Virus record (IMG/VR): IMGVR_UViG_3300036770_002569
Coordinates: 1 to 22,606 of that record
Strand: one strand, 5' to 3'
Origin: a virus
Length of the DNA: 22,606 bases
The position numbers and the translations under genes are program-made. Below are positions 2,600-21,356 of the stretch, piece by piece. The notes under the pieces are model-generated. The model had not been told where the DNA came from, did not search any database, and was given only the letters and a program-made list of their open reading frames with translations. Every line of letters begins with the position of its first letter. The first letter of the stretch is position 1.

Positions 2600-5500
2600 A
2601 TGGCAATACTCAAAAAAACATCATTTAAACAAAATTTAGAACAAATAAGTGTTTTCATAAATGATTTTGACCCAAATAGTCAGTATTTTAGGGTTACGGA
2701 TTTGCCCGATACATTTACGGGTGGTAAGAATGCATTTTTAGTGCAAGGTTCTACAAATTTAGTTCCTGATACTTTGGTTAAGATTGAAATTAAGGATTCT
2801 TTGGGTAACGTTATATATTCAGAACCATCTGCAGGTATTCCATCTTATTATGAGGGTACATCTAAAGTTGTATCCGTTCATATTTATCCAGATACCGCAT
2901 TTGGACCTTGTACTATAACTATTTTAGGTGAATTAAGTAGTTACACAGTTGATGGAATAAATGTACCCGTTCCATTAGATTGGGTGGGTAAATATAATGT
3001 AAAGTGGCAAAGAACAATAAATGTAAATCCATTTAAGAAAAACATAACACCAATTCGTTTTTATAGGAGGCCACAAGTAGAAATAACAGAATCGGTTTTA
3101 CCAATATATAATAGAAATGTAACAAGCGTTACACTTTCAGGAAGTATAAATGGAACATCCATATTACCAATTCAAGATACGGATTATAGAACATATAGAG
3201 GACCTATTTCTTACGAATTATCAACAACATCCAGTTTTTTTTCACAATCAATGGAAGGATTCAATATAAATGTTTCTGGATTATCTTCTTCGTATTCACC
3301 ACTATTGACAGATGTTATTAATGATAAAAAAGCATTAGTATCGATACCATATTATATAACAGGATCTACACCCGATCCTTTCTATGAAAGAATTAGAAAT
3401 TTTTCAAACAAACCGTTTAGTATAACATATGATGAAAGTGTTTCTATAACAAATTCAAATATAAATTCATCATTTGCTAAAATAAGAATTACGGATTTAG
3501 AAACGTTTACAGGCGATGCATCCAGAATAAAAGTATATGCATCATCAAAAAATGATTTAGGTGATTATCAACTATTAGAGGATGCGTTATTAGAAAGTAA
3601 TGAAATTTTACAAGTAGATGAATTCAATGGGGTACTAAATGTAAGAACTGGTATTTTTTCACAACCAGTTATAGATTCTTATTGGCAAACAGAAAATATA
3701 ACAACTTCTCCAATTGTTTCTATTGATAATTCTTTATTAATACGTTCTGTTAAATTACAACCAACTACGGATGTAAATAGTCCTGTAAATTTACAAGGAT
3801 TGTTTAAATTTATGACAAGTGGTTCTATAAATTTTTCTAGATTTACTCAATACCAATTGGATTTTACTCCGTTAATGAGTTCATCTTTGGGTAACTATGC
3901 TTTATTGGAAATTTATGGTAGCGGTTCTGCATTTGTAAATAGTAATAGTTCAAATACCTTTGGAAAGTTTTTGGGTGAATTAGAAACAAATACACCATTT
4001 AGAAGATACGATAGACAAACTATAAATTTTCAACCAGATGCAAATGGTGATGGTAAGCTTGTATTTTTGGTAAAAGCGGGTACATGGCATATATCAAATG
4101 TAAGTTTAAAAGCTGCACAGGAAAGTTCTTTTTCACCAAACGAAATTTCTTTAGTTGTAAATGTTCCAACTAAAATTAATAATGAAACTTTTGATTTCAA
4201 ATTTGAAATTTATGACATAAATAATAATTATGTTCCAATAACCTTACAAACATCATCTTTGTTTGTAGGTGGTAATGATGTATCCGTTACTAGAAACTTA
4301 GAACTTAATTTATCAAATAATAGTTTTAATTTTTCTACATCATCCGTTATTCCATCATTTATTACAATTGATTTTACAAAAAGTGGATTAACAGGATCAT
4401 TATTATTTGCATCTTCTGCTGTAGATACTACTGGTAATGAGATATCGCCACAAGCTGGTTTTCCAGGTACATTAGAAGTTGTTGATGAAAATACATATAA
4501 ATTAACAGCTGCGAATTTCACCGGTTCTATATCAGGCGTTACCGTTGGAGCAATAAGTTATACTGCAAGTTGTGAAGATATAAATCGTTATTTTACAGTA
4601 TTTAGAACCGAACAGGGTGCACCCGCTTATTTATTTTATGCAACTGCCGATAAAAATAATTTTACATTTAATCCGGATGCTGGATACAAATCAGTAGTAC
4701 AGAATGATTACATTGATATACGATTAGTTCAGCAGAATTTACCTGATAATGGTCCTATGGGTCTTGTAATTAATTCTGCATCTGAGGCCGGTTCTCCACC
4801 TCCACTTTATTATACATCTAGTGTTGGTAATGCAAGTATTTACAGATTATTTGTTTCTACTTCTTCCGATATAACTCCTGACAATAAGAATGGATATACT
4901 TTTGCAATAGGTCAATCAAATTATGATTTTGAATTACATACAATAGATGGTGTATTTACATCATCTATAACAATAGATGCAATCCCAAAAGGAGATGCGG
5001 CAAAAGGTATTATAGCTACCTCTGATAAAAATCAATTTTTTTATAAAATGTCAAATGCTGATCCGGATCCTAATCCACAATCAGCGACTATTTTTGTAAA
5101 AAGATTAAATTTAACATCACCATCATCATCTATAACAGTAAATAGTGGGAGTGGAAAACCTGCATTAACATTGATAAGTAATAATATAGGAAACGGAGTT
5201 GCGCAATATAGTATTTCAACTATAGAATACCCATATTCGGCCGGGTCTACCACATATTATTTTACAGGATCAGATTCCAATGATATAGAATATATTGATG
5301 AGGTTACATTAGATGCGTTAATTGTAAAATCACAAATAGGTGTATTAGCTTCTAATGAAAATACAACGTTAACGGCATACTCTACTGGGTTCGTACCATC
5401 TGCATCATTTTTATCAACAACAGGATCAATAATTGTTACCGTTGGAAATGAAACAGCATCATATGCACCAACGTTAACAACAAATAGATTTAGTGCAAGT

Positions 5501-8500
5501 ATTTCACAATCAACGGGTGTTTCAAATCCAACGATTGTAGATGGTGTATATAGTATAGGACAATTAACAAATGATACAGGAAGTGTTACTTTGAATGTAT
5601 CATATCAAGATGCAACGGGAGTTATTACTAATTTTCCAAAAATTATTACATATTCAAAAGCAAAAAAAGCTGCGCCGGTACTTGCTATAAACATAACAAA
5701 TAATAATCAAACTGTAAATGCAAAATCAACCGGAGTACAATTATCCGAATTTGCATCTGCTAGTATTGAAATTTTAGAAACATATGATGGTGTAACAACC
5801 GCCAAATCTATATATGGAACGCCTACAATAACTACGTTATATGGGTATAGTAATTATTTTTATAATTCAGTAAATCAAACTATAGCGCTTAGAACATTGA
5901 GTACCGATTTTGAACAACTTAGTATTTCTCTGGAAGTTTTAGATTCGGAAAATGTTATAAGAGCATTGGATGGAAACATTTCATTAGCAAAAGCAAGAAA
6001 TGCGGTTCCAAATGTTGAAGTATCATTAGTACCCGTTGCGCAAACTATTTTAGCAAATTCAAGAGGAAGTGGTTCTGTAACACCACAACCCATTACTGTA
6101 ACTGCAGCAGAAGGTGGAACTGATAGATTTACAAGTATAGGAACTTTATCATTTACAAATGGATTAGCCGGAACTGCAACTGGAAACACTATAAACTTTA
6201 GTTCGAATGCAACTTCTATGTTAAGAGATAGTGGTTCTGTTTTTATTCCAATAAACTATACGGATGGTGAAGGAAATACAGGATTAAAAACAATAGTAGC
6301 AAGTGTTACAAGAGTTCGTTCAGCTGCACCACTTACTGCAATTTCAGTAACCCCACAAACCCAAACGGTAACATCATCTAGTATTGGATATGGAACACCT
6401 CAAAATGTAACATTAACTTTACAAGAAGTAGGGGGTACACCATATACATACACATCAACATTAGGTTCAACAATAAATACTTTTAGCGCATCAGTAACAA
6501 ATGCTACAATTGATACATTGACGGGAATAATAACCCCAAATACACCCAATACATCTTTGGGTGTAAATGCATCATCTTTGATTACATATATAAATTCAGA
6601 AGGTACTATATTAACATCTTCTGTTAGTTATAGTGTTGGTGTTGCATTGGAAGGAAATGATGGTGGACAAGGTCCTGGTGTAGTTTATAGAGGAACATAT
6701 GTAGCAGGAACTACATACTTTCACACAGATATTAGAAGGGATATAGTGGTATATTCTGGTCAATACTATTTGGCAAATAATACAGCAAAAAGTGGATTAA
6801 CAACGTGGGGAACACCACCAACGGATTGGACTGCATTTGGTGCTACGTTTGATGCAGTCGCTACCAACGTATTATTAACTGCGGATGCAACTATAACCAG
6901 AGGGTTGGTCATGGGAACATTGGATGGATTTAGTGGATTTATTAGAAGTGCAAATGCAACCTCTTTAACTGCTGGTAAGGGTTATTATTTTAATTATGAT
7001 GGTACATTTAGATTTGGTGATACCGGTTCATCTGTTGTATCTTGGGATGGTACAAATCTAACAGTTAGTGGTACAATAAAAGCACAAACGGGTTCTATTG
7101 GTGGAGTAATAATAGCAGGAAATTCTATATACACCGGAACAGGAACGTATGCAAATAATAATACCGGGTTCTTTTTAAGTTCTTCGGGACACTTTTCATT
7201 AGAAGATAAATTGAGTTGGGATCCAGTAAACAATTATTTGAATGTTAGTGGAACTATAACTGCAACAACAGGATCAATTGGTGGAATTACAATGTCCAAT
7301 GCTTCAATCTACGCAGGAGCAGGTCTTTGGAATGATAAAGCAACTGGATTCTTTATCAGTTCTTCGGGACACTTTTCATTGGAAGATAAATTGAACTGGA
7401 ATCCAATAACTGAAAATTTAAACATAAGTGGGACTATAACTGCTACAACTGGATCAATTGGTGGAATTACAATGTCCAATGCAGCAATATATACGGGTGT
7501 TGGTCTTTGGAATAATAAAAATACTGGATTTTTTATAAGTAGAAGTGGACACTTCTCATTGGAAGATAAATTAAGTTGGGATCCAATAGGTGAGCATTTA
7601 AACATTAGTGGTACTTTGAGAGCAAATACAGGTTCTTTGGGTGGATGGACAATTGATTCCGATTCTATATTTTCTGGAACAAAAAGAGCCAGTTCTTATA
7701 ACCAATTCAATAGTGCAAGTATGATAACTATTGGATCTGCCGGTTATATAAGTGCTCCTGGATTTTACATATCAACTACTGGTCAAGGTGTATTTAGTGG
7801 TAGTTTACAAGCAAATGGTGGAACGGTTTTAACAACCACCAATCTATTATTATTTACCGCATCAATGCATTCATTTACATCATCCGTATCAAGTAGTTTA
7901 ATAAATATAAGTTCTTCTATAAGTGTATCTATTGCTACATTAGATGATGCAATTTTTACAAATTCAAATGGTTTAATTGATAAACTACCAAATGCATCCA
8001 CAAGTGGATTATATACTGGAAAAGAATATCTTGGATATTTCAAAGTAGGTTCGGGTTGGACTTCATTTTTAAGTTCATCTGGTGATTTTTATCTATCTGG
8101 ATCAGGAACGCAAGGGTTGGTTTGGAACTCTACTGCTAATACATTATCAATAGATGGTAGGGTGGTTGCAAGAACGGGATTGATAGGTGGATGGGGAATC
8201 GGAACATCCGAAATAAGTAGTTCAGGTACAGTTGGTGGTAGTGATGGTGTATTTACTACTACCGGTATGAGAATTGGTGGAACCGGATATATATCCGCTA
8301 AAAACTTTTCAATTTCATCTGCAGGTAATGTAGTATTGAGTGGTAGTATAGCTGCTAATTCTGGTTTCATTGGTGGATGGGTAATCGGTGCAAGTTCAAT
8401 ATCTACCGCAAATGTAGTTGGTGGTAGTGATGGTGTGGGAACTACAAGTGGTGTAATTTTATCTAAAGATGGTTGGATATCTACTAAAAATTTTACAGTA

Positions 8501-11500
8501 TCATCTACGGGCAATGTTTCTATGACGGGAACGGTCAGTGCAACTGCGGGTGCAATAGGTAGTTGGGTTGTAGATACGGATTCTATTTATGTGGGTACAA
8601 AAAGAAATAGTAGTTACAATCAATTCAATAGTGCAAGTATGATAACCATTGGATCTGCGGGTTACATAAGTGCTCCTGGATTTTTTATAACAACAACAGG
8701 ACAAAGTAGCTTTAGTGGTAGTTTGAGAGCAAATGGTGGTCAATTAATAACACCAACTCAATTATTACAATTTACTGCATCGATTCAATCATTTACATCA
8801 TCCATATCTCAAAGTTTAATAAATGCAAGTGCATCAATAAGCCAATCAATATACGTTACAGATCAATCTATTTTTACAAATGCGAATGGTTTAATAGATA
8901 AGTTACCAAATCCTAGTACAAGTGGTTTATATACAGGTCAACAGTATTTGGGATATTTTAAAGCAGGATCGGGATGGACTTCATTTTTGAGTTCATCTGG
9001 TGATTTTTATTTATCCGGATCTTCAACCCATGGATTTGTTTGGAATGCAACAAGAAATACATTATCCGTTGATGGTAATATAATAGCCAGAAGTGGTTCA
9101 ATTGGTGGATGGGGAATAGGAACTAATGAAATCTCATCATCAAATACCGTTGGAGGAGGTGATTCATCACATACTACAACAGGTATGAGAATAAGCGCTG
9201 TTGGGTGGATTTCTGCTCCAAATTTTTATTTAGCAAGTAATGGAAATGTTAGAATTAGTGGTTCAATATATGGTGGTGATATAACAATAGGAACGGCGCC
9301 TAGTGTTTTCAAAGCGGACTTAAATGGTATATACTTAGGAAATGGAACATTTGCTTCTGCACCGTTCAGAGTTACTCCAGGTGGTGCATTAACGGCTACA
9401 AATGCAACACTTAGTGGTGGTACGATTGGTGGGTGGAGTATAAATACTAACAATATATCAAGCGCCGGAACATCCGGTGGTGGGGATGGTTCATTCACAA
9501 ATAGTGGTATAATTTTAAATAAAGATGGTTGGATATCATCTGAAAAATTCTTTATAAGTAGTAGTGGTGATGTAAGTTTTGCAGGTAAATTGGCATATGG
9601 TGTTAGAGGTTCTGGTGTAAACATCATGCCGTTAGTTTGGCGATATGATCCAAAACCTTCATCAGGAATTTTAGCAAGTAGTTATGAAAATTTAACTATA
9701 AATGGTACAGCTGCGGAAAATGCCATAAATTATGGAACTGATCCTTTTGGTAAACAATCTTTATTATGGGAATGTTATCCATCAGGAGATGGTAATGCAG
9801 ATGGTGGATGGAATTCGACTCCAACTGAAATTGATAACAACAAAACTTATAAGTTTATAACTTATGCAAAAATAAACAATAATGCGGATGGCGATTTATA
9901 TTTTGGTTTTTATTCAATAAGTACAACAGGTGCACTGGTTAGTTCTTCTTTTTTAAATAATACGGTATCAGATAATACTTACTTCTTTTTCTCACAAAAT
10001 CCATCAGGAGTAAATCCTATACCATTTACAAATAGATGGTATTTGATGGTTGGATATGTTCATGGTAAAGATTATACCGGAACAACAAATATGGGTGGTG
10101 TTTATGATGTAGAAAGTGGAAGAAAAGTTTTTGAATGTTATGATTTTAAATGGAAAACTGATGGAGTGAATCCAATTGCAAAAGCATTGCATAGATGTTA
10201 TCATTTCTATAATACAGCAGGTAATGGAACAACACTTTATCAACAAATGTTTGGTCCGGCAGTTTTTGAGGTAGATGGAACTGAACCTGATTTAAATAGG
10301 TTATTAGATAAAGCTCAAAGTTTAGCCGATGGTAAGGGTTCTGGTTCGTTTTTTGATGGAAAAACTTTTTATGCACCTATAATATCGGGTTCATCCGGAG
10401 ATTTTACAGGCAAAATAACCGCAACATCGGGTGAAATTGGTGGTTGGTTAATTGATAGTGATAGATTATATTCATCAGGTTCGGGTTCAAATAATATAAT
10501 AAAAATGAAACTTGAACCAAACTACGCAAATCCACAATTTACACTAACCGATGTAGCTGGTGCGCCTGCAGTCGTTATTAAAACAGGACAATTATTAGAT
10601 ACTGCAGTTGGTGCGGCATCTATAAATGTTACTTGGAACGCAGATAAATCCGGCTTTACCGCTGGTACTACTACCGATGAAGTAAATGAAACAAAATATA
10701 ATTTAGCATCATCTTTTACAGTTAGTACTACGGGCTTATATACGGGCACAATAACGTTATCATCAGCAAATGCATTTACTCCACTTTCATCTGGATATTA
10801 TGGGTATAGTTTATCAATGCAAATAGCATCGGATAATCTATTTGCAAATGTTGTGTATGATTCCGGAGTTTCATCAATAACATCAACTACGGTTGGTGTA
10901 CAAGCGGTTATACCGGCAGTTGCAGCAAAACAGATTGAACTGACATTTAATTCTACGGGAACATATTACATACGATCATATTGGAAAAGATTTGCATTTG
11001 GTCCTGATAATCCTAGTGCAAGTTGGAATACAATATCTCATAATTTTCCTTCATTTACATTAAGTAAAACTACTGCATATACAGAATTAACAGATTTTGG
11101 ATTTCAATCTATAAGAAGTGCAGATAGGTACGTTAAAATTCAGAGGATATCTTCAACGGATGCAACAATGTTACAAGTTGGTGGTGATATAACCGCAACC
11201 GGAAATATAACGGCATACTATACATCGGATGAAAGATTAAAAGAAAATATAAAACAAATAGATTCTGCGGTTTCAAAAATAAATAAAATAAATGGTGTTG
11301 AATTTGATTGGATAACTGATTTGATTGAATCAAAAGGTGGTGAAGATGGGTATTTTATAAGAAAACACGATGTTGGTGTAATTGCACAAGAAATAGAAAA
11401 AATTTTACCAGAAGCAGTTGCTACTAGAGATGATGGTTTTAAAGCAGTTAGATATGAAAAAATTGTACCTCTTTTGATTGAAGCAATTAAAGAACTTAAA

Positions 11501-11533
11501 AACGAAATTGAAGAATTAAAAAAGAATAAATAA
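2600..11533 (+). CDS. Giant tail/receptor-binding protein with S74 self-cleaving chaperone domain (2977 aa)
   Basis: Probable long tail fibre or baseplate-attached adhesin. The N-terminal ~200 residues (motifs FRVTDLPDTFTGG, GIPSYYEGTSK, RFYRRPQVEI) resemble a domain I recall at the N-terminus of large virion proteins of marine T4-like phages, likely the virion attachment part. Residues ~200-1350 are Ser/Thr/Asn-rich beta-sandwich segments. Residues ~1355-1412 (GVVYRGTY...IVVYSGQYYLANN...WTAFG) look like a CBM5/12-type carbohydrate-binding module. From ~1498 on come G-x-I-G-G-W repeats of 60-62 residues, then an insert at ~2335-2610 rich in Trp/Tyr that may be a second binding domain. The C-terminus is a peptidase S74 intramolecular chaperone: SDERLK at 2876-2881 gives the Ser2876/Lys2881 dyad known from phage endosialidases, followed by DVGVIAQEIE and a final coiled coil. 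The chaperone should release itself after trimer folding. The stop overlaps the next start (TAATG). Confidence 0.88.
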   Translation: MAILKKTSFKQNLEQISVFINDFDPNSQYFRVTDLPDTFTGGKNAFLVQGSTNLVPDTLVKIEIKDSLGNVIYSEPSAGIPSYYEGTSKVVSVHIYPDTAFGPCTITILGELSSYTVDGINVPVPLDWVGKYNVKWQRTINVNPFKKNITPIRFYRRPQVEITESVLPIYNRNVTSVTLSGSINGTSILPIQDTDYRTYRGPISYELSTTSSFFSQSMEGFNINVSGLSSSYSPLLTDVINDKKALVSIPYYITGSTPDPFYERIRNFSNKPFSITYDESVSITNSNINSSFAKIRITDLETFTGDASRIKVYASSKNDLGDYQLLEDALLESNEILQVDEFNGVLNVRTGIFSQPVIDSYWQTENITTSPIVSIDNSLLIRSVKLQPTTDVNSPVNLQGLFKFMTSGSINFSRFTQYQLDFTPLMSSSLGNYALLEIYGSGSAFVNSNSSNTFGKFLGELETNTPFRRYDRQTINFQPDANGDGKLVFLVKAGTWHISNVSLKAAQESSFSPNEISLVVNVPTKINNETFDFKFEIYDINNNYVPITLQTSSLFVGGNDVSVTRNLELNLSNNSFNFSTSSVIPSFITIDFTKSGLTGSLLFASSAVDTTGNEISPQAGFPGTLEVVDENTYKLTAANFTGSISGVTVGAISYTASCEDINRYFTVFRTEQGAPAYLFYATADKNNFTFNPDAGYKSVVQNDYIDIRLVQQNLPDNGPMGLVINSASEAGSPPPLYYTSSVGNASIYRLFVSTSSDITPDNKNGYTFAIGQSNYDFELHTIDGVFTSSITIDAIPKGDAAKGIIATSDKNQFFYKMSNADPDPNPQSATIFVKRLNLTSPSSSITVNSGSGKPALTLISNNIGNGVAQYSISTIEYPYSAGSTTYYFTGSDSNDIEYIDEVTLDALIVKSQIGVLASNENTTLTAYSTGFVPSASFLSTTGSIIVTVGNETASYAPTLTTNRFSASISQSTGVSNPTIVDGVYSIGQLTNDTGSVTLNVSYQDATGVITNFPKIITYSKAKKAAPVLAINITNNNQTVNAKSTGVQLSEFASASIEILETYDGVTTAKSIYGTPTITTLYGYSNYFYNSVNQTIALRTLSTDFEQLSISLEVLDSENVIRALDGNISLAKARNAVPNVEVSLVPVAQTILANSRGSGSVTPQPITVTAAEGGTDRFTSIGTLSFTNGLAGTATGNTINFSSNATSMLRDSGSVFIPINYTDGEGNTGLKTIVASVTRVRSAAPLTAISVTPQTQTVTSSSIGYGTPQNVTLTLQEVGGTPYTYTSTLGSTINTFSASVTNATIDTLTGIITPNTPNTSLGVNASSLITYINSEGTILTSSVSYSVGVALEGNDGGQGPGVVYRGTYVAGTTYFHTDIRRDIVVYSGQYYLANNTAKSGLTTWGTPPTDWTAFGATFDAVATNVLLTADATITRGLVMGTLDGFSGFIRSANATSLTAGKGYYFNYDGTFRFGDTGSSVVSWDGTNLTVSGTIKAQTGSIGGVIIAGNSIYTGTGTYANNNTGFFLSSSGHFSLEDKLSWDPVNNYLNVSGTITATTGSIGGITMSNASIYAGAGLWNDKATGFFISSSGHFSLEDKLNWNPITENLNISGTITATTGSIGGITMSNAAIYTGVGLWNNKNTGFFISRSGHFSLEDKLSWDPIGEHLNISGTLRANTGSLGGWTIDSDSIFSGTKRASSYNQFNSASMITIGSAGYISAPGFYISTTGQGVFSGSLQANGGTVLTTTNLLLFTASMHSFTSSVSSSLINISSSISVSIATLDDAIFTNSNGLIDKLPNASTSGLYTGKEYLGYFKVGSGWTSFLSSSGDFYLSGSGTQGLVWNSTANTLSIDGRVVARTGLIGGWGIGTSEISSSGTVGGSDGVFTTTGMRIGGTGYISAKNFSISSAGNVVLSGSIAANSGFIGGWVIGASSISTANVVGGSDGVGTTSGVILSKDGWISTKNFTVSSTGNVSMTGTVSATAGAIGSWVVDTDSIYVGTKRNSSYNQFNSASMITIGSAGYISAPGFFITTTGQSSFSGSLRANGGQLITPTQLLQFTASIQSFTSSISQSLINASASISQSIYVTDQSIFTNANGLIDKLPNPSTSGLYTGQQYLGYFKAGSGWTSFLSSSGDFYLSGSSTHGFVWNATRNTLSVDGNIIARSGSIGGWGIGTNEISSSNTVGGGDSSHTTTGMRISAVGWISAPNFYLASNGNVRISGSIYGGDITIGTAPSVFKADLNGIYLGNGTFASAPFRVTPGGALTATNATLSGGTIGGWSINTNNISSAGTSGGGDGSFTNSGIILNKDGWISSEKFFISSSGDVSFAGKLAYGVRGSGVNIMPLVWRYDPKPSSGILASSYENLTINGTAAENAINYGTDPFGKQSLLWECYPSGDGNADGGWNSTPTEIDNNKTYKFITYAKINNNADGDLYFGFYSISTTGALVSSSFLNNTVSDNTYFFFSQNPSGVNPIPFTNRWYLMVGYVHGKDYTGTTNMGGVYDVESGRKVFECYDFKWKTDGVNPIAKALHRCYHFYNTAGNGTTLYQQMFGPAVFEVDGTEPDLNRLLDKAQSLADGKGSGSFFDGKTFYAPIISGSSGDFTGKITATSGEIGGWLIDSDRLYSSGSGSNNIIKMKLEPNYANPQFTLTDVAGAPAVVIKTGQLLDTAVGAASINVTWNADKSGFTAGTTTDEVNETKYNLASSFTVSTTGLYTGTITLSSANAFTPLSSGYYGYSLSMQIASDNLFANVVYDSGVSSITSTTVGVQAVIPAVAAKQIELTFNSTGTYYIRSYWKRFAFGPDNPSASWNTISHNFPSFTLSKTTAYTELTDFGFQSIRSADRYVKIQRISSTDATMLQVGGDITATGNITAYYTSDERLKENIKQIDSAVSKINKINGVEFDWITDLIESKGGEDGYFIRKHDVGVIAQEIEKILPEAVATRDDGFKAVRYEKIVPLLIEAIKELKNEIEELKKNK
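7091..7630 (+). repeat. Three tandem 180-nt (60-aa) repeats in the tail gene
   Basis: Three in-frame units begin at 7091, 7271 and 7451, each exactly 180 nt. Each encodes G-S-I-G-G-[VI] followed by IY.G.G, then TGFF(I/L)S..GHFSLEDKL and ending with a [NL]SGT(I/L).A.TG segment. Units 2 and 3 share 32 identical bases at their start (7271-7302 and 7451-7482), which indicates recent duplication rather than only protein-level conservation. The array leads directly into the next G-S-L-G-G-W unit at 7631. Confidence 0.93.
7631..9274 (+). repeat. Large in-frame duplication in the tail gene (918-nt copy plus ~726-nt copy)
   Basis: Copy 1 runs 7631-8548 and copy 2 from 8549 to about 9274. Both start with a G-x-[IL]-G-[GS]-W unit, continue with NQFNSASMITIGSAGYISAP, a helical FTAS..SFTSS stretch and LGYFK.GSGWTSFLSSSGDF, then reach a further G-G-W-G-I-G unit after exactly 546 nt in each copy (8177 and 9095). 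Copy 1 carries two 186-nt units (8177 and 8363) where copy 2 has only one (9095), so copy 2 is shorter by one unit. The exact spacing supports duplication by unequal recombination. Confidence 0.9.
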
Positions 11534-12078: not shown

Positions 12079-12225
12079 TACATAATTTGGTAAACTAAAA
12101 AATTTTTTGTATGTTTGAATAAAAAAAGACAGCACTGATCAGCACTATAAAAATTAAAAGTATAAATAAAAAATAAAAAGAAAAGAAAAAAAGATATTTA
12201 TACTGACTAAAGTTAAAGAATTCAA
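12079..12225. other. Non-coding gap with direct repeat, palindrome and inverted repeat
   Basis: A 147-nt gap between the Thr/Pro-linker protein and the polyprotein. It contains AAAAAATTTTTT at 12097-12108, a direct repeat AGCACT-GATC-AGCACT at 12131-12146 centred on the palindrome CTGATCAG (12135-12142), and a perfect 10-bp inverted repeat AGTATAAATA (12159-12168) with TATTTATACT (12195-12204) around an A/G-rich spacer. I find no convincing intrinsic terminator: there is no GC-rich stem followed by a U-run. The gap most likely carries the promoter of the polyprotein gene. Confidence 0.6.
12161..12168 (+). promoter_or_regulatory. T4-type late promoter box TATAAATA upstream of the polyprotein gene
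   Basis: A second perfect TATAAATA, 57 nt before the ATG at 12226, inside the left arm of a 10-bp inverted repeat. The paired presence in both longest non-coding stretches supports a gp55-type late promoter, with the caveat that the motif is common by chance in A/T-rich DNA. Confidence 0.38.
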
Positions 12226-15200
12226 ATGATTAATGAAGTAGATAAACCAAAGGTGACCAAAACTGTAGTTGTATATTCTGGTAGATTTCAACCATTCCAT
12301 AAAGGACATTATGCATCTTATCAAAAATTAGTTTCAAAATTTGGAGCGGATAATGTTTTTATAGGAACATCTAATGATACATCAGGACCAAAATCACCTT
12401 TTAATTTCAAAGAAAAAAAGAAGATAGCAACTACAATGTTTGGAATACCTTCTAACAGGTTTGTCCAAATTAAAAATCCATATAAACCAGTTGAAATACT
12501 TTCTAAATTTGATGGACAAACTACTCAATATATTGCAGCAGTTGGTGAGAAAGATGCAGATAGATTACAAGGTAAATACTTTAAAGCATACAAAGGAAAG
12601 CAAGGATACGGGTATGATGAAATTGGTTATGTATATGCAGTACCAGCAGAACCAAATCCTATTAGTGGAACGGATGTTAGAAATAATTTAGGAAGTGGTG
12701 ATGATAAGAAAGCAAAGAAATTCTTCTTAACAGCTTATCCTAAATTTGACAAAAATATATTTGATTTAATTACAGGAAAACTTATTAGTGAAAACTTATA
12801 TAGAGGATATCCATCAAAAGAGCAAGTATTGGATATTGAAAAGAAAAATAAAGAGTTGAGAAATAAATTAGATACGGATAAAGAATTTTTATATGATCCA
12901 ATAAAAGAAATAATTGCAAATACAATTACAGATGATTTATTTGAAGATTGGTTGAATTCTTATTTGCAAGAAGAACCAAATCCACAATTGGATAAGGATA
13001 TTGAATATACAAATACAAAAGGACAGAAAGCAAAAATAAAAGCAAGAGATGCATTAAGATTACCGAAAGAACATCCAGCACACGTTGCGGCTAAAAAATT
13101 AGTCCCAGATGATAATACACCATTATCTGATACCGATAAGGAAAAAAAAGAAAAAGGATTACCGTCTGATAAACAAGAAAAACCAAAAGAAACTGATACT
13201 AAAAATCAAGAACAACCTGAACAAGAACCACAAAAATTAAGTGGAGATGAGTTTAAATCAGATGCAGAACGTGGTGAAAAAGATAGAAAGCAAGATAAGA
13301 TAAAAGAAACTTTGGATAATGCTAGGAAAGAGTTATCATCGGAAGAAAATGAAACAATTGATAAATTAAATGATCCTAATTCAGAAGAAAGAAGTTCTTT
13401 TTTTGATGATATAATAGATGGATATAAAGAAGCATATGAATATGTTGCTAAAGGTGTAAAACACGTTATTGACCATAAAAAAGAAATGGTGGGTGGTTCA
13501 ATGAAAGCAGTAAAATCATTGGCAACTACTGGAAATGTTGGAAGTGTAAAAGATAAAGATGGTAACGATAGACATTGGAGTGAATTTACAAGTGTTGGTA
13601 GAGGTGGGGATAGTGAATGGGAAGAAAATGAAGTAGATGTATTGGATAGTCACGGACATTCAACTGGTAAAAAGAAAATTGAGAAAAAACCAAAAGTTTC
13701 AGAATATGCAACGGATGAAGAAAAAGAATTATTTGACCAATCTTGGGGTGAATATAAAAAACAAACAAAAGCATTAAAAGGTTTGGCAACTGAAACTGCG
13801 GTAATAATTGGTTCAATCGCAGTTACAGGTGGGATAATTGGTGGAGTTGGTGCAGCTGCTAAAGGTGCAGGTGCAACGGGAATTGCTAAAGGTGCAGCTG
13901 CAAAGGCAGGATATAAATTAGCAGGTGGGCATTTGGGTGAATATGTGGTGAAAGATATAATTAAACATTCCGCATTTGAAGCATTGGGTGCAAATACCGC
14001 AACAGCATCTAGTGGTGGTATTGCAATGGGTGCAACTGGTATATTTGAAGGAATTGATGATAATATAGATAGTAAAAAATTCATGTCTAATTTAATTAAA
14101 AAGACATTGAAAACAATGAAAACATATAAACTATCCGATGAACAATTATTGAAAACAATAGAAAGATATAAAAAAGAAGAACCAAAAAATGATGCACAAG
14201 ATTTATTAAAAGAAAATCTTTCGGAAACAAAACAACAATCTATTAAAAGGTTTGTAGAATATGCAACCAAAAGATTAAAATTAAAAGAAACTCCAAAAGT
14301 AACATTGGTTGGTGGTAGAGAGTTTGCAGAAACTAAAACAAGTTTAGGTGGATTTGACCCGGTAACAAAAGAAATATATGTTGCAACGGAAGGTAGATTA
14401 ACCGCAGATATATTGAGAACACTTGCACATGAAATGGTTCATAGAAAGCAAGATGAATTGGGTTTGGTTAGAAATCCAGAAAAAGATGGTGCCGATGGTT
14501 CACCAATAGAAAACCAAGCACATGCAGTAGCAGGTATATTGATGAGAGAGTATGGTAGAGTAGATAAGCAAATATATCAAGAAGCACATACTGTAAAAAA
14601 TCATGAACCTGTTAGTAAAGCAGATAAAGATTTTACACAAAATCATGCTTCTGAAATAGGATACGAAGCAGAATTGGATACCATTGATTTTGATGATGAT
14701 AGAGAAAGAGAACCAGGACATCAATCAAATACAAAGGATACCGAAAATAAAGGATATGAGCCTGTAAAAGAAGATATAAATGTAAAAGTTGATAAAGGTG
14801 ATACTGTTTTAATGGGTAAATTCAAAAACAAAAAAGTTGATGTAAAGGATATTGGAAAGGATTCTCACGGAATGCCAACCATAAACGGCAAACAAGCAAC
14901 TACATTTAGAACTATGAATGAAATGGGTAATAGAGATATTCATTTCAAAAATGTTATTGAACTTTATAGAAATCAAAAATTCAAAAAAAGAATAAACGTA
15001 TATCTTTTTGATAATCCAAATGGTAATAAAGCAGATGAAGTTGCAAGAAGATTAAGAAATATGGATTATCAAGAAATAACTAAATTGGAAAAAGAATTAA
15101 ATCTTCCGAATAAGTATTTGCAAGAATTGAATTATAATAAATCAAATAATTCAAAAATTAAAAAAGTATTTGATACATTTGTAAAGAAATATAAAAGTTT

Positions 15201-16896
15201 AAGTGATATAAATTTTGAAACATCAAAAAAAAGTTATACATTTATTTTTAATGATAAAAAAGATGCTCAAAAATTTGAAAAAGAATTTACATCAATGGGT
15301 TCTAACAAAATGAAATTAGTTAGAAGTGCAGAATATAAAGATGAAAATCCTCCTGTTTTTATAAAAGTATTTGGAATAGTAGATGAAGTTGATAATTTCT
15401 TAAATGAACTATTTGGATTAAACGAAGTTAGTACAGTAACAATATCTAATACAGCAGATATTCCAGATGGAGCATTTGTACCAAAAGGTAAAAAGAGAAA
15501 ATTGAACACATATAAAGGTGAAGATTGGTATAAAAATGGTGGATACACTCAAACCGATTTTCCAAAAGCAGATACTATATTTGGAGATGAGGATGCGGAT
15601 GAAAGAACTATTAAATATACAATAGATAATTTACCAAGAGTTGCGTTTACACCTACTAAATTTATAAAAGAAAATAAATTAGAGACTAAAAAATTATTAT
15701 CAGAAGGTGGTGCATATGGTCATATGTCACATCCATTTGATGATATGCAATTGACATTTGGTGAATTAAAAGATATTATTGTAAAAGCACTAAATGGTGA
15801 ATTGGGAGTAGTTAGAGAAAAAACCGATGGACAAGCATTGGCAATTAGTTGGAAAAATGGCAGATTGATTGCTGCAAGAAATAAAGGACATTTAGCAAAT
15901 GCAGGAGCAAATGCAATGGGTATCGAAGATGTTGCATCTAAATTTGGAGGAAGGGGTGGATTGACTGATGCATATAATTTCGCAATGAAAGATTTGACAG
16001 CGGCAATTAGTGGATTGAGTGATAAACAAAGAAAAAAGATATTCAATGAAGGTAAATGTTTTATGAATTTGGAAGTAATTTGGCCTACATCTGTAAACGT
16101 TATACCTTACGGACAAGCATTACTTATATTCCACAATACAACTTGCTACGATGAAAGTGGTGTAGCAATTGGTGCAGACCAAAGTGCAGCATCTATATTA
16201 GCAGGAATGATAAAACAAGTAAATGCGGATGTTCAATCAAAATACACAATACAAGGACCTCCTGTTACAGAAATACCAAAAAGTGAAGATTTAAGTTCAA
16301 AGCAAGGAAGATATTTATCTAAATTAAGTAAATTACAATCAGAATTTAAGTTAAATGATAGTGATACGATGGCATTATATCATCAAAAGTGGTGGGAAAA
16401 TTACATTGATAAAAATGCACCAACAAAGATTGATAAACTTACAAAGAATGCATTGGTAAGAAGATGGGCATTTGGTGATAAATCATTCCGTTTGAATACA
16501 ATATCAAATCCAGAATTACAAAAATGGTCAATCCAAAACGATAAAGTTGATGTTGTAAAGAAGCAAAAAGAAAATATGAAAAGATTTGAAGAAATCTTTT
16601 TAGGAGTTGGTGCGGATGTACTGGACTTTGTAAGTTCGGTATTAACTGTACATCCTGATAAAGCAATTCGTTCAATGAAAGTCAAATTAAAACAAGTAGC
16701 ATCTCAAGTAAAAACATCAACGGATGCAACTAAAATTGCAAAGTTTAAGTCGGAATTACAAAGATTAAATTCATTAGGTGGAATAGATAGAATAGTTGCA
16801 TCGGAAGGACTTGTTTTCTTTTATAATGGAAAAACCTATAAACTAACAGGCACATTCGCACCACTAAACCAATTGCTTGGAATTTTTTACGAATAA
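12226..16896 (+). CDS. Multi-enzyme modular protein: HxGH nucleotidyltransferase, HExxH zincin, KxDG adenylation domain (1556 aa)
   Basis: Probable polyprotein. Residues ~10-185 are a cytidylyltransferase-like nucleotidyltransferase (NMNAT/PPAT fold): PFHKGH at 23-28 and ISGTDVR at 146-152. Residues ~258-295 are a small module (TNTKGQKAKIKARDALRLP), then a Lys/Glu/Asp-rich linker to ~395 and a Gly/Ala-rich hydrophobic region at ~523-610. Residues ~670-780 hold a zincin: HEMVH at 735-739, probable third ligand Glu762. Residues ~850-895 form a small GDTVLMGKFKNKK...GMPTING module. Residues ~1161-1556 are a ligase-like adenylation domain: motif I KTDG at 1199-1202, motif III NLEV at 1281-1284, motif IV EGLV at 1527-1530, motif V YKLTG at 1538-1542, and no OB fold after it. 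L-x-E sites flank several modules (after 189, 667, 1067 and 1160), as for T4 gp21 cleavage. It is followed 33 nt later by the Cys-motif gene. Substrates are unknown and the capsid-cargo role is inferred. Confidence 0.82.
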   Translation: MINEVDKPKVTKTVVVYSGRFQPFHKGHYASYQKLVSKFGADNVFIGTSNDTSGPKSPFNFKEKKKIATTMFGIPSNRFVQIKNPYKPVEILSKFDGQTTQYIAAVGEKDADRLQGKYFKAYKGKQGYGYDEIGYVYAVPAEPNPISGTDVRNNLGSGDDKKAKKFFLTAYPKFDKNIFDLITGKLISENLYRGYPSKEQVLDIEKKNKELRNKLDTDKEFLYDPIKEIIANTITDDLFEDWLNSYLQEEPNPQLDKDIEYTNTKGQKAKIKARDALRLPKEHPAHVAAKKLVPDDNTPLSDTDKEKKEKGLPSDKQEKPKETDTKNQEQPEQEPQKLSGDEFKSDAERGEKDRKQDKIKETLDNARKELSSEENETIDKLNDPNSEERSSFFDDIIDGYKEAYEYVAKGVKHVIDHKKEMVGGSMKAVKSLATTGNVGSVKDKDGNDRHWSEFTSVGRGGDSEWEENEVDVLDSHGHSTGKKKIEKKPKVSEYATDEEKELFDQSWGEYKKQTKALKGLATETAVIIGSIAVTGGIIGGVGAAAKGAGATGIAKGAAAKAGYKLAGGHLGEYVVKDIIKHSAFEALGANTATASSGGIAMGATGIFEGIDDNIDSKKFMSNLIKKTLKTMKTYKLSDEQLLKTIERYKKEEPKNDAQDLLKENLSETKQQSIKRFVEYATKRLKLKETPKVTLVGGREFAETKTSLGGFDPVTKEIYVATEGRLTADILRTLAHEMVHRKQDELGLVRNPEKDGADGSPIENQAHAVAGILMREYGRVDKQIYQEAHTVKNHEPVSKADKDFTQNHASEIGYEAELDTIDFDDDREREPGHQSNTKDTENKGYEPVKEDINVKVDKGDTVLMGKFKNKKVDVKDIGKDSHGMPTINGKQATTFRTMNEMGNRDIHFKNVIELYRNQKFKKRINVYLFDNPNGNKADEVARRLRNMDYQEITKLEKELNLPNKYLQELNYNKSNNSKIKKVFDTFVKKYKSLSDINFETSKKSYTFIFNDKKDAQKFEKEFTSMGSNKMKLVRSAEYKDENPPVFIKVFGIVDEVDNFLNELFGLNEVSTVTISNTADIPDGAFVPKGKKRKLNTYKGEDWYKNGGYTQTDFPKADTIFGDEDADERTIKYTIDNLPRVAFTPTKFIKENKLETKKLLSEGGAYGHMSHPFDDMQLTFGELKDIIVKALNGELGVVREKTDGQALAISWKNGRLIAARNKGHLANAGANAMGIEDVASKFGGRGGLTDAYNFAMKDLTAAISGLSDKQRKKIFNEGKCFMNLEVIWPTSVNVIPYGQALLIFHNTTCYDESGVAIGADQSAASILAGMIKQVNADVQSKYTIQGPPVTEIPKSEDLSSKQGRYLSKLSKLQSEFKLNDSDTMALYHQKWWENYIDKNAPTKIDKLTKNALVRRWAFGDKSFRLNTISNPELQKWSIQNDKVDVVKKQKENMKRFEEIFLGVGADVLDFVSSVLTVHPDKAIRSMKVKLKQVASQVKTSTDATKIAKFKSELQRLNSLGGIDRIVASEGLVFFYNGKTYKLTGTFAPLNQLLGIFYE

Positions 16897-18236: not shown

Positions 18237-19844
18237 ATGACAGTTCAAGGTAAACCACAAAAAACCTTAAAAGAATTAATAGCAGAGGAATATCGTAAAT
18301 GTGCTTCCGACCCAATATACTTTATGAAAAAGTATTGTGTCATCCAACATCCGACTAGAGGCAAAATTCCATTTCATTTATATAAATTTCAAGAAAATTG
18401 TTTAGATGATTTTAAAGATAATAGATTTAACATCATTTTAAAATCACGCCAGTTAGGTCTTTCAACCCTATCAGCCGGATTCATTCTTTGGAAAATGATA
18501 TTTAATCAAGACTTCAACGCATTGGTTATCGCAACTAAAGTAACTGTTGCAAAAAACTTGGTTGAAAAAGTTAGGGTAATGCATGATTTATTACCAATTT
18601 GGTTAAGAGATGGTAGTAGTGGTTCGGTTGAAGATAATAAACTTTCCCTTAAATTAAAAAATGGTTCTCAAGTAAAAGCAATTACATCTTCTCCAGATGC
18701 AGGACGTTCTGAAGCATTATCATTGTTAGTAATAGATGAGGCTGCATTTATTAGAGATATTGATGAAATTTGGATATCAGCACAATCAACTCTTTCAACC
18801 GGTGGTTCTGCAATAGTATTATCTACTCCAAATGGTGTAGGTAACTGGTTTCATAAAATGTGGGTGGAAGGTGAAAACGGAACAAATGGTTTTAATTGTA
18901 TAAATTTACATTGGACAGTTCATCCTGAAAGAAATCAATCTTGGAGAGATGAACAAACTCGTATTTTAGGAGTCAAAGGAGCAGCACAAGAATGTGATTG
19001 TGATTTTATAGGTTCCGGTGATACGGTTATAGATCCTGTATTACTAAGTTGGTACAAAGATACATACGTTATGGATCCTATTGAAAAACGAGGATTTGAT
19101 AATAATCTTTGGGTTTGGGAATATCCAAACTATAATAAACAATATATGGTGGTGGCGGATGTTGCACGTGGTGATGGTTCGGATTACTCTACTGCACAAA
19201 TTATTGATATTGAAGATTCATCACAAGTTGCAGAATATAGAGGAAAAGTAGAAACAAAAGATTTTGGTAATTTTTTAGTTGCATTATCAACCGAATATAA
19301 TAACGCTTTATTGGTTGTTGAAAATTCAAATGTAGGTTGGGCAACTATACAACAAATAATTGACAGAGGGTATCCTAATTTGTTTTATATGAGTAATGAT
19401 TTGAAGTATATTGATGTTGAAAGACAAATTACAAATAAACATTATAGAGAAGAAAAACAAATGGTTGCCGGATTTTCTACTACATCAAAAACACGCCCTT
19501 TAATTATTTCTACTTTGGATAGTTACATAGGTGATAAAGATATATTAATAAGATCATCTAGATTAATAGATGAATTATTTACTTTTATATGGAGTGGTGG
19601 TAGAGCAGAAGCTATGAAGGGATATAATGATGACTTGGTTATGGCGATGGCAATAGGACTTTGGGTTAGAAATACTGCATTAAGATTAAGACAAGAAGGA
19701 ATTGATTTGACAAGAACTATGTTGAACTCTACACAGATGGCAAAGTACGATGGAGTATATTCAACAGGATATTCTGGTCAAAATCCATATGAAATGGATT
19801 TAGGTAGAGGAGAGAAAGAAAACTTAACTTGGTTACTTCGTTAA
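18237..19844 (+). CDS. terL: Terminase large subunit (T4 gp17-like)
   Basis: ATP-driven DNA-packaging motor and headful nuclease that docks on the portal. The 535 aa hold both expected domains. ATPase: P-loop region KSRQLGLST at 69-77, Walker B LLVIDEAAF at 163-171 (Asp167, Glu168) and the coupling motif STP at 196-198. Nuclease, RNase H-like: Asp308 in VADVARGDGSDYS, Glu362 in LLVVENSN, and Asp465/Asp466 in YNDDLVMA. The P-loop has Leu where T4 gp17 has the Walker lysine (SRQLGKT), with Lys69 and Arg71 upstream likely supplying the positive charge. This variant is familiar from other marine T4-like terminases as I remember them. It begins 1 nt after the stop of the membrane protein gene. The small terminase is not identified with certainty. 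Confidence 0.97.
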   Translation: MTVQGKPQKTLKELIAEEYRKCASDPIYFMKKYCVIQHPTRGKIPFHLYKFQENCLDDFKDNRFNIILKSRQLGLSTLSAGFILWKMIFNQDFNALVIATKVTVAKNLVEKVRVMHDLLPIWLRDGSSGSVEDNKLSLKLKNGSQVKAITSSPDAGRSEALSLLVIDEAAFIRDIDEIWISAQSTLSTGGSAIVLSTPNGVGNWFHKMWVEGENGTNGFNCINLHWTVHPERNQSWRDEQTRILGVKGAAQECDCDFIGSGDTVIDPVLLSWYKDTYVMDPIEKRGFDNNLWVWEYPNYNKQYMVVADVARGDGSDYSTAQIIDIEDSSQVAEYRGKVETKDFGNFLVALSTEYNNALLVVENSNVGWATIQQIIDRGYPNLFYMSNDLKYIDVERQITNKHYREEKQMVAGFSTTSKTRPLIISTLDSYIGDKDILIRSSRLIDELFTFIWSGGRAEAMKGYNDDLVMAMAIGLWVRNTALRLRQEGIDLTRTMLNSTQMAKYDGVYSTGYSGQNPYEMDLGRGEKENLTWLLR

Positions 19845-19850
19845 TTTTTT

Positions 19851-19860
19851 TATATTTATA
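19851..19860 (+). promoter_or_regulatory. TATATTTATA element before the small basic protein gene
   Basis: The only gap after the terminase (32 nt) contains TATATTTATA ending 16 nt before the ATG. It matches 7 of 8 positions of the Bacteroidota -7 consensus TAnnTTTG, and a TTGG at 19829-19832 sits about 19 nt upstream, where the -33 TTG element would be. It also shares ATATTTAT with the elements near 2576 and 12194. Confidence 0.28.
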
Positions 19861-19876
19861 GATTGAAACTATTAAT

Positions 19877-20230
19877 ATGATAAAACTAACCGACATATTG
19901 TTAGAAATTGATGAAGACCTTCGTAAGTGGTTTGGTAAAGGTAAGTGGGGTGGTAAAGGTGGAGGTGGATGGGATAGATATAATAGTAAAGGTGAGAGAA
20001 TAGGAAAGTGTGGTGGTGGTAAAGAAGGTGAAGCATACGCTGCTTGTTTATCATCAGCAGCTGCATCTAAATTGGGTAAAAAAGGTAGAGCAAGTTTTGT
20101 TAAAAGAAAAAGAGCAAAACAAAATGATAAAGGTAGAGGAGATAAAGGAGATGGTGGAAAAGGAAAAGCACCTGTTAGAGTGAGTTGGGATAAAAAAGGA
20201 AGTGATAAAAAATATAATCCACCTAGTTAA
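19877..20230 (+). CDS. Small basic Gly/Lys-rich protein, candidate packaged internal protein (117 aa)
   Basis: The protein starts MIKLTDILLEIDEDLRKWFG, then becomes extremely rich in Gly, Lys and Arg (GKGKWGGKGGGGW, KRKRAKQNDKGRGDKGDGG). The centre (RYNSKGERIGKC...EGEAYAACLS, with GKKGRASFVKRKRAKQ) resembles small basic modules I recall in other T4-like phages and giant viruses, without a known function. The N-terminal hydrophobic/acidic stretch ending in ILLE resembles a T4 capsid-targeting sequence, which is cut after L/I-x-E by the prohead protease; the mature product would then be a strongly basic, DNA-compatible internal protein. It lies between terminase and the modular protein, one base before the latter's preferred ATG. 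Charge and motif are seen; the cargo role is inferred. Confidence 0.6.
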   Translation: MIKLTDILLEIDEDLRKWFGKGKWGGKGGGGWDRYNSKGERIGKCGGGKEGEAYAACLSSAAASKLGKKGRASFVKRKRAKQNDKGRGDKGDGGKGKAPVRVSWDKKGSDKKYNPPS

Positions 20231-20231
20231 T

Positions 20232-21356
20232 ATGAACGAAAAGTGGAGTCAAAAATATAAACGCTCAATTGACTGTAATAATCCAAAAGGATTTAGTCAA
20301 AAAGCACATTGTCAGGGACGTAAAAAAAATGAAATGAATATAGAAGAAAAACTAAATTTATTTTTAGAAAAAAATTGCCCAACCGATCCAGGAAAATGGT
20401 CGGCATCAAAAGCAGCAGCTAAATCTAAATTTGATGTTTATCCATCGGCTTATGCAAACGGGTGGGCTGCAAAAAACTATAAAAAGAAAGGTGGTGGATG
20501 GAAAACTTGTAAAGAAAGTGTTGAATTGAATGAAGCATGTTGGGAAGGATATAAACAAGTTGGTGGAAAAATGAAAAACGGAAAAATGGTTCCAAATTGT
20601 GTACCAAATAATAAATCAATTAAAGAATCAGCATTTGTAAAAGGTAAAACTTATGGTGGAACTAAATGTGAAGGTGGATGCTATATGGGAAAGCCTGGTT
20701 TAATGAAACTAATTAAGATTTCTAAAGATAATCCTGATAGTGTATTTATGTTTAGAGATGATAATTATTCAGGTATTCAACCACATTTCATTAAAAATGG
20801 AGTAATTGCAAAAGCAACTACGGTTAATCCATCATACGATTTACAAAAAAGTAAAGTAAAAAATCTAAAGATAGGTAAAGATGTTATTCTTTCGGTTAGA
20901 TTATTTGAATCAGTAAATGAAACAGAAATGAAATTAAAAAAAGAAAATCACATGCCAAATCACCCTGAAAGACGGGATAGTGATGATGAAATTAATTATG
21001 GTAAAGTAGAACCATTAGAATACGATGTTGATAACTATGATGATCATATTGATTTTATTGCATTTATGAGAGAATATACTCAACAATTGAATGAAGCAAC
21101 TTGTCCATGTATGTTTGAAGCGGAATATCAAGGTAGAACTGTAAAATTAGGTAAACCAATGCAAGGTGATGTTAAGAAGTTCAAAGTATATGTTAAAAAC
21201 GGACAAGGTAATGTTGTGAAGGTAAACTTTGGAGATCCTAATATGAGAATTAAAAAATCCAATCCAGAAAGAAGAAAATCCTTCAGAGCAAGACATAATT
21301 GTGATAATCCTGGTCCAAGATGGAAAGCTAGATATTGGTCTTGCAGAAAATGGTAA
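20232..21356 (+). CDS. String of small Cys/Lys/Arg-rich modules, candidate processed capsid cargo (374 aa)
   Basis: I chose the ATG at 20232, one base after the upstream stop; an in-frame ATG at 20202 would add 10 residues and overlap the upstream gene by 29 nt. Modules in order: 4-32 (KWSQKYKRSIDCNNPKGFSQ, ending CQGRKK); 49-90 (KWSASKAAAKSKFDVYPSAY, then ANGW); 102-125 (ACWEGYKQVGGKMKNGKMVP, then NCV); ~135-230, a less familiar domain with CEGGC and FMFRDDNYSG; and ~289-374 (YQGRTVKLGKPMQGD, VNFGDPNMRIKKS, FRARHNCDNPGPRWKARYWS). I recall these as free-standing or recombined modules in many marine T4-like phages; none has a known activity. Two of them are preceded by L-N-E followed by A (after E101 and E288), matching the T4 gp21 cleavage rule. 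Next to the portal gene, a head-internal role is plausible. Confidence 0.68.
   Translation: MNEKWSQKYKRSIDCNNPKGFSQKAHCQGRKKNEMNIEEKLNLFLEKNCPTDPGKWSASKAAAKSKFDVYPSAYANGWAAKNYKKKGGGWKTCKESVELNEACWEGYKQVGGKMKNGKMVPNCVPNNKSIKESAFVKGKTYGGTKCEGGCYMGKPGLMKLIKISKDNPDSVFMFRDDNYSGIQPHFIKNGVIAKATTVNPSYDLQKSKVKNLKIGKDVILSVRLFESVNETEMKLKKENHMPNHPERRDSDDEINYGKVEPLEYDVDNYDDHIDFIAFMREYTQQLNEATCPCMFEAEYQGRTVKLGKPMQGDVKKFKVYVKNGQGNVVKVNFGDPNMRIKKSNPERRKSFRARHNCDNPGPRWKARYWSCRKW

Follow-up and report, generated by a model that had tools for sequence, protein, structure and literature searches.

Cleavage of polyproteins by a viral protease is a hallmark of many RNA viruses; phages have a prohead protease, whose known role is to trim the proteins of capsid and core. 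Are there phage proteins in which the two features meet? The nearest described kind is the polyvalent protein, e.g., P1 DdrB and N4 vRNAP, in which a zincin and other enzymes are likewise joined in one chain with shuffled modules, encoded near virion genes (PMC5512222), and for which packaging and injection have been inferred (Iyer et al. 2017, PMC5512222). There, however, the embedded zincin is credited with the processing, whereas the protein described here has T4-type prohead-protease sites at its junctions and an Alt-like leader. Such sites are not discussed in the text of PMC5512222, as searched for prohead protease, T4-like and polyprotein, nor are gp21 sites at module junctions described in the open-access literature that was searched. 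The other relevant comparison is with T4 itself, where the gp21 motif is L/I-x-E with cleavage after the E (PMC9026906). T4 Alt and IPI-III are late, head-packaged cargo with a short N-terminal propeptide ending in L/I-x-E; the capsid-targeting leaders (CTS) of the internal proteins have 10–19 residues (PMC9026906), and Alt is cut at ITE-6, with loss of six residues, and at LTE-619 near its C-terminus (PMC5694885). While the propeptide is a shared feature, the T4 cargo proteins are single-function and the present protein strings several enzymes together, with sites at several junctions.

The window, the whole stretch of 22,606 nucleotides that was analysed, is a 22.6-kb virus fragment that ends ahead of any protease gene. 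Its ORF 12226-16896 (+ strand) is uninterrupted from an ATG start and encodes 1556 aa. With a probability of roughly 0.6, we take its product to be a ‘polyvalent’ effector precursor that a freshwater phage related to T4 would express late and package in its head, where the prohead protease would cut it in trans; its packaging, cutting and injection, and what the enzymes act on, are what we infer from comparison of sequences. More than 450 relatives of the gene, of 937-2026 aa, are present in IMG/VR, and it is widespread in lake and river phages; the best 80 of these loci were retrieved, and the conservation counts below are on 44 dereplicated full-length homologues. The full architecture was found in no isolate of the phage collection searched, and the sole bacterial-genome match is a Pelagibacterales MAG contig. 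Both ends are kept in full-length relatives and the middle region is variable: four relatives of 937-985 aa are without the residues matching about 200-640, that is, most of the variable middle (190-667), which has a Gly/Ala-rich helical stretch near 520-567. The neighbours, all on the + strand, are an SbcC-like ATPase, an S74 tail-fibre-like protein, small ORFs, the terminase, two small-module proteins and a portal-like ORF. The tail-fibre-like protein (2977 aa, window 2600-11533) has repeated segments and an S74 intramolecular chaperone.

Table 1. Positions in the window of the features discussed (a slash marks a putative cut)
Feature	Nucleotides	Residues or motif	Strand	Remark
Late-promoter-like box ATATTTATA	12194..12202		+	upstream of polyprotein gene
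Leader MINE/	12226..12237	putative cut after residue 4	+	putative capsid-targeting propeptide, gp21-type site
N-terminal nucleotidyltransferase	12238..12792	5-189	+	NMNAT/NadD fold
Nucleotidyltransferase motifs	12298-12309; 12661-12681	HxGH (25-28); ISGTDVR (146-152)	+	
Candidate cut after E189	12790..12792	ISE/N	+	L/I-x-E at column 188/189 in 39/44
Variable middle	12793..14226	190-667	+	several low-confidence stretches
Candidate cut after E667	14224..14226	LSE/T	+	35/43; low-pLDDT 652-665 just ahead
Zincin	14227..14574	668-783	+	homologous to stand-alone phage zincins L004, L112 etc.
Zincin motif	14428-14442	HEMVH (735-739)	+	
Small modules	14770..15426	849-1067	+	shuffled between relatives; end at LNE-1067/V
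Linker module	15427..15705	1068-1160	+	conserved IKE-1149 and LSE-1160/GG
C-terminal ligase-like adenylation domain	15706..16893	1161-1556	+	
Ligase-like motifs	15820-15831; 16804-16815	KTDG (K1199-G1202, in EKTDG); EGLV (1527-1530)	+	
Terminase	18237-19844		+	
117-aa basic protein	19877..20230	MIKLTDILLE/	+	CTS-like leader; ATATTTATA box ahead at 19852-19860
384-aa late ORF	20202..21356	SKFDVYPSAYANGWAAK; CWEGYK...VPNCVP	+	modules with LxE in between
Portal-like ORF	from 21393		+	

The sequence-only reading had placed three enzyme signatures in the one frame, HxGH/ISxTxxR, HExxH and KxDG...EGLV, and all are there. The nucleotidyltransferase scores above the cut-off for Pfam CTP_transf_like, matches phrog_395 and has Foldseek matches to NadD (probability about 1.0); with HxGH, ISxTxxR and a NadD-like fold it is of NMNAT/NadD type as judged by sequence and fold. 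The window zincin itself is unmatched, but a stand-alone zincin (L112) matches Peptidase_M78 above the cut-off (25.1 vs 22 bits; its match to Pfam MPTase-PolyVal, E 0.03, is below), and it is through such stand-alone phage zincins that the window zincin appears to be related to that family. The C-terminal domain keeps the KxDG/EGhV residues (motifs I and IV) in 12 aligned relatives. These motifs it has in common with T4 Rnl1 and Rnl2, which with archaeal RNA ligases are also its best fold matches, at E of only 0.07-0.3 and with no significant sequence match; the RNA_ligase profile gives a weak match (E 0.028) in one member of the family, and Pfam and PDB sequence searches with the domain alignment gave no significant family. 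Cyanophage KxDG proteins (phrog_455-like) were considered as homologues and set aside, as the likeness is at motif level only and profile comparison was non-significant. Two relatives encode a separate canonical RNA ligase (PF09414; G001:C1:2880-3473 and G002:C1:66963-67553), so in them the polyprotein domain is not the only ligase-like enzyme. As in polyvalent proteins, then, at least two unrelated enzyme domains stand in one chain with shuffled modules, near portal and terminase genes.

What of the candidate cleavage sites? The four that had been named (ISE-189/N, LSE-667/T, LNE-1067/V and LSE-1160/G) are all present, though the list missed the strongest, INE-4/V, as well as those at 228, 608 and 1149. 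The caution that came with it, that the number of L/I-x-E tripeptides would itself prove nothing, was apt: 16 are observed and 14.9 expected, and the raw count was dropped as evidence. It is the conservation, not the number, of L/I-x-E that exceeds chance, and absence of such conservation among homologues, which would have counted against the idea, is not what was found. L/I-x-E is present at the N-terminal site in 42 of 44 homologues, after 228 in 43 of 44, after 608 in 35 of 36, at 1067 in 19 of the 25 that possess that module and ahead of the ligase-like domain (1160) in 44 of 44. In a blind scan for a conserved L/I, a variable residue and a conserved residue, which does not favour E, E is the last residue in 6 of 15 hits. 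Its share of the conserved columns is 36 of 598 (binomial P about 1.5e-4). The six, where about one was expected, are at window residues 4, 188, 228, 608, 688 and 1160.

On a tree of the 44 homologues, where columns change 6 times on average and linker columns 9 times, P3 of the N-terminal site is I in 17, L in 25 and K in 1 (L081), P2 is any of seven residues with 18 changes, and P1 is invariably E (43 of the 43 with the site, 0 changes). Ahead of the ligase-like domain P3 is only L or I, P2 has 17 changes, and the P1 E and P1' G are unchanged. At both sites the pattern, as read from the alignment, matches the published specificity of T4 gp21. In contrast, the 667 site falls short of what had been claimed for it: S fills its middle position almost without exception, and some relatives have another residue in place of its E; it behaves as fixed sequence rather than as a motif.

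At the N-terminus, MNLI-x-E/ is similar to the site at which T4 Alt is cut, ITE-6. Homologues begin MNLINE/V, MNLLTE/K, MNLITE/V, MNIKE/I or MNLNE/K, i.e., with a putative short propeptide like that of T4 Alt and the internal proteins. L075, which starts later, is without the site, and L075 and L077 both lack the leader. It had also been suggested that shorter relatives might begin at the predicted cuts, and several start close to them. A stand-alone ligase-like protein (L003) reads MKFLKSYEEFLNE/NLILE/GGSYGHL; stand-alone zincins (L112-L116) have leaders such as MKTFVEFLTE/SKRSHI..., others being MNLQQFLTE/S and MISFKDFIKE/E; and cyanophage nucleotidyltransferases begin MKKFSAFLTE/A, MKGFSNFLIE/A and similar. 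Among 40 non-redundant stand-alone zincins, 23 have L/I-x-E at positions 5-14, against an internal background of 8.7% and 28% in neighbouring ORFs (Fisher P 4e-4). L002 also has a leader. In contrast to these, the jumbo coliphage relatives of the nucleotidyltransferase have none at the N-terminus. There is no genome-wide enrichment of N-terminal LxE in the relative G001 (12% vs 10% background), and the leader is restricted to particular genes.

Two described proteins are especially close. The ‘cytidylyltransferase like protein’ of Microcystis phage Mel-JY01 (WWT39297.1) joins the nucleotidyltransferase to the same C-terminal KxDG domain, at about 38% identity, with a leader ...NILLSE/ and IAE/GG ahead of the ligase domain, but with its 639 aa it is without the middle region, zincin and small modules. 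The S-SCSM1 ORF91 type of cyanophage NMNAT/cytidyltransferase (phrog_395) is of a related family and has a CTS-like leader (ORF91 begins MKSFLQFLKE/A), though it is a separate gene of about 400 aa, not fused to a zincin or ligase-like domain; mass spectrometry of purified virions detected ORF91 (PMC9602691). Packaging of the window protein is supported by its Alt-like N-terminal site, its late gene context and this published virion proteome.

If packaged, is the protein cut anywhere other than at its leader? T4 Alt, P1 DarB and N4 vRNAP, large proteins that are packaged, remain whole for the most part, and the N-terminal site is the best supported, so that a protein trimmed only there, as in T4 Alt, with the remainder acting as one multi-domain enzyme, has some claim to attention. 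We nevertheless hold it to be unlikely, as the pre-ligase site is equally strict and as modules bring a site along with them where they are inserted. The predicted structure bears on the same question. Low-confidence stretches in AlphaFold models, in which low pLDDT partly reflects thin alignment coverage, include 1-4, 195-198, 214-251, 591-603, 609-611, 652-665 and 1066-1169, and the candidate cuts at 4, 189, 228, 608, 667, 1067 and 1160 are in them or at their edges. The 189 site follows a helix (176-188), after which pLDDT falls; near 1067 the fold is confident to residue 1062, with low pLDDT from 1066 and predicted disorder over 1066-1169. Cuts within folded domains, which were to speak against processing, are thus not what the models give for 189, 228, 608, 667, 1067 and 1160, each of which lies at the border of a domain or in a linker of low confidence. 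Of the six E sites from the blind scan only 688 lies within a confident fold, that of the zincin, and because of it a conserved LxE cannot alone be proof of a cut. The original proposal of a packaged and cut protein therefore stands in part, and fares better than the argument first made for it: sites are conserved and at edges, but that at 667 is weak and that at 688 is inside a fold.

Which protease would do the cutting? A gp21-type prohead protease (PF03420) is encoded in 10 of the 10 contigs of relatives searched. The contigs of other zincin carriers are often fragments, and 10 of 20 have it. The protease carries LFE/A near its own N-terminus, and in the seven major capsid proteins read, a conserved KQLLDE/A stands ahead of the expected mature start; the same motif is thus on capsid protein and protease, as in phages with Alt- and IP-type cargo. 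Could the embedded zincin serve instead, in the head or after injection, with LxE other than the N-terminal one being irrelevant to cutting? Autoprocessing by an embedded zincin has been proposed for polyvalent proteins, P1 DdrB among them (PMC5512222), and the HExxH and a downstream Glu are conserved among relatives of the window protein. However, the junctions bear the gp21 motif with its free middle residue, the Mel-JY01 protein keeps the motif without a zincin match, and leader-bearing stand-alone zincins, which have nothing to process, are common, so that an effector role fits better; processing by the zincin is, in our view, quite improbable.

Modules similar to those of the window protein recur in other long proteins. 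In L079, L021, L046, L081, L140, L149, L175 and L184 the same or similar cassettes are reordered, and LxE often stands between one and the next. Directly ahead of a P-loop module, L/I-x-E is present in 6 of 7 stand-alone and 5 of 5 embedded copies, the background being 14%; the DLRKWF module proved ambiguous for this purpose, as VDE and TNE are also found ahead of it. L149:2908-6237 encodes a 1109-aa protein with a zincin, proline-rich spacers and a HAD-like C-terminal domain, repeats ‘LNE/LLAE/’ or ‘LNDLLAE/’ ahead of several modules, and is an independent polyprotein lineage. L175:2383-6009 and L184:2383-5289 join nucleotidyltransferase, zincin, P-loop kinase and late-gene modules, without an N-terminal leader but with LxE ahead of several modules. 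Two genes of the window itself, those for the 117-aa and 384-aa proteins, have embedded counterparts in polyprotein L175: the modules of the latter have homologues there, and the DLRKWF module of the former follows INE/.

Late transcription is suggested by the late gene cluster together with the box ahead of the gene, ATATTTATA, which on sequence grounds is a candidate late promoter of the phage group. TATTTATA is found upstream of the start codon in 43 of 43 relatives, whereas the T4 late promoter, TATAAATA, considered on the coding strand, is upstream in only 1 of the 43 and was rejected in favour of the conserved ATATTTATA. In a 245-kb relative (G001, L190-L202) 29 of 32 matches to ATATTTATA are on the coding strand, mostly 12-70 nt upstream of genes that are largely late or structural. 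In most polyprotein genes only a few bases separate the end of the box from the ATG; the mRNA would then have a very short 5′ leader or none. That the protein might be a cytoplasmic late multi-enzyme rather than a virion protein, its conserved LxE being structural or docking residues, is the least credible of the alternatives: NAD- and RNA-repair enzymes are common as cytoplasmic phage proteins, the authors of the cyanophage proteomes warn that enzymes detected could be contaminants, and leaders are missing from the jumbo coliphage relatives, but T4-CTS-like leaders are present on independently arranged homologues, L/I-x-E conservation is position-specific and the context is late and structural.

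For the head-packaged precursor cut by the prohead protease, the course of events would most likely be as follows. The short propeptide, M-N-L-I-x-E, would dock the precursor into the prohead core, as with T4 Alt and the internal proteins; the activated gp21-type protease would remove the leader after L/I-x-E and cut between modules, after about 189, 228, 608, 1067 and 1149/1160 and possibly 667. The nucleotidyltransferase of NMNAT type, the zincin together with small modules and the RNA-ligase-like enzyme would thereby be set free. Ejected with the DNA into the cell, the freed enzymes would probably act at once on NAD or nucleotide pools and damaged nucleic acids as counter-defence. Their possible tasks early in infection are restoring NAD or nucleotides, sealing RNA or DNA and cleaving host proteins. 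Many effectors would then be loaded in fixed ratio by a single address tag. Whether this extends to a general cargo-loading grammar of aquatic T4-related phages, with L/I-x-E ahead of each effector module be it stand-alone or embedded, we regard as evenly balanced; the gene described here would be a widespread example of it. Under it, modules could join, come apart or change places, and in the head the prohead protease would still free them from one another. LxE-flanked modules might then predict injected effectors from sequence, and the rule would allow injected counter-defence proteins, now ‘hypothetical protein’, to be listed for uncultured phages by the thousand. The recurrence of nucleotidyltransferases in cyanophage virions would also find an explanation.

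Some further features of cyanophage genes deserve mention. The neighbours of the virion NMNAT of S-SCSM1 (ORFs 89-93; L217 26358-31836) are also listed as virion proteins, and the C-terminus of the DUF3008-like ORF93 resembles a CTS (TFKEFLEYIE). In Synechococcus phage Bellamy gene 170 (L097) the annotated start is apparently 16 codons late; the longer frame opens MKSLFQFLNEAQ..., a CTS-like leader lost in annotation.
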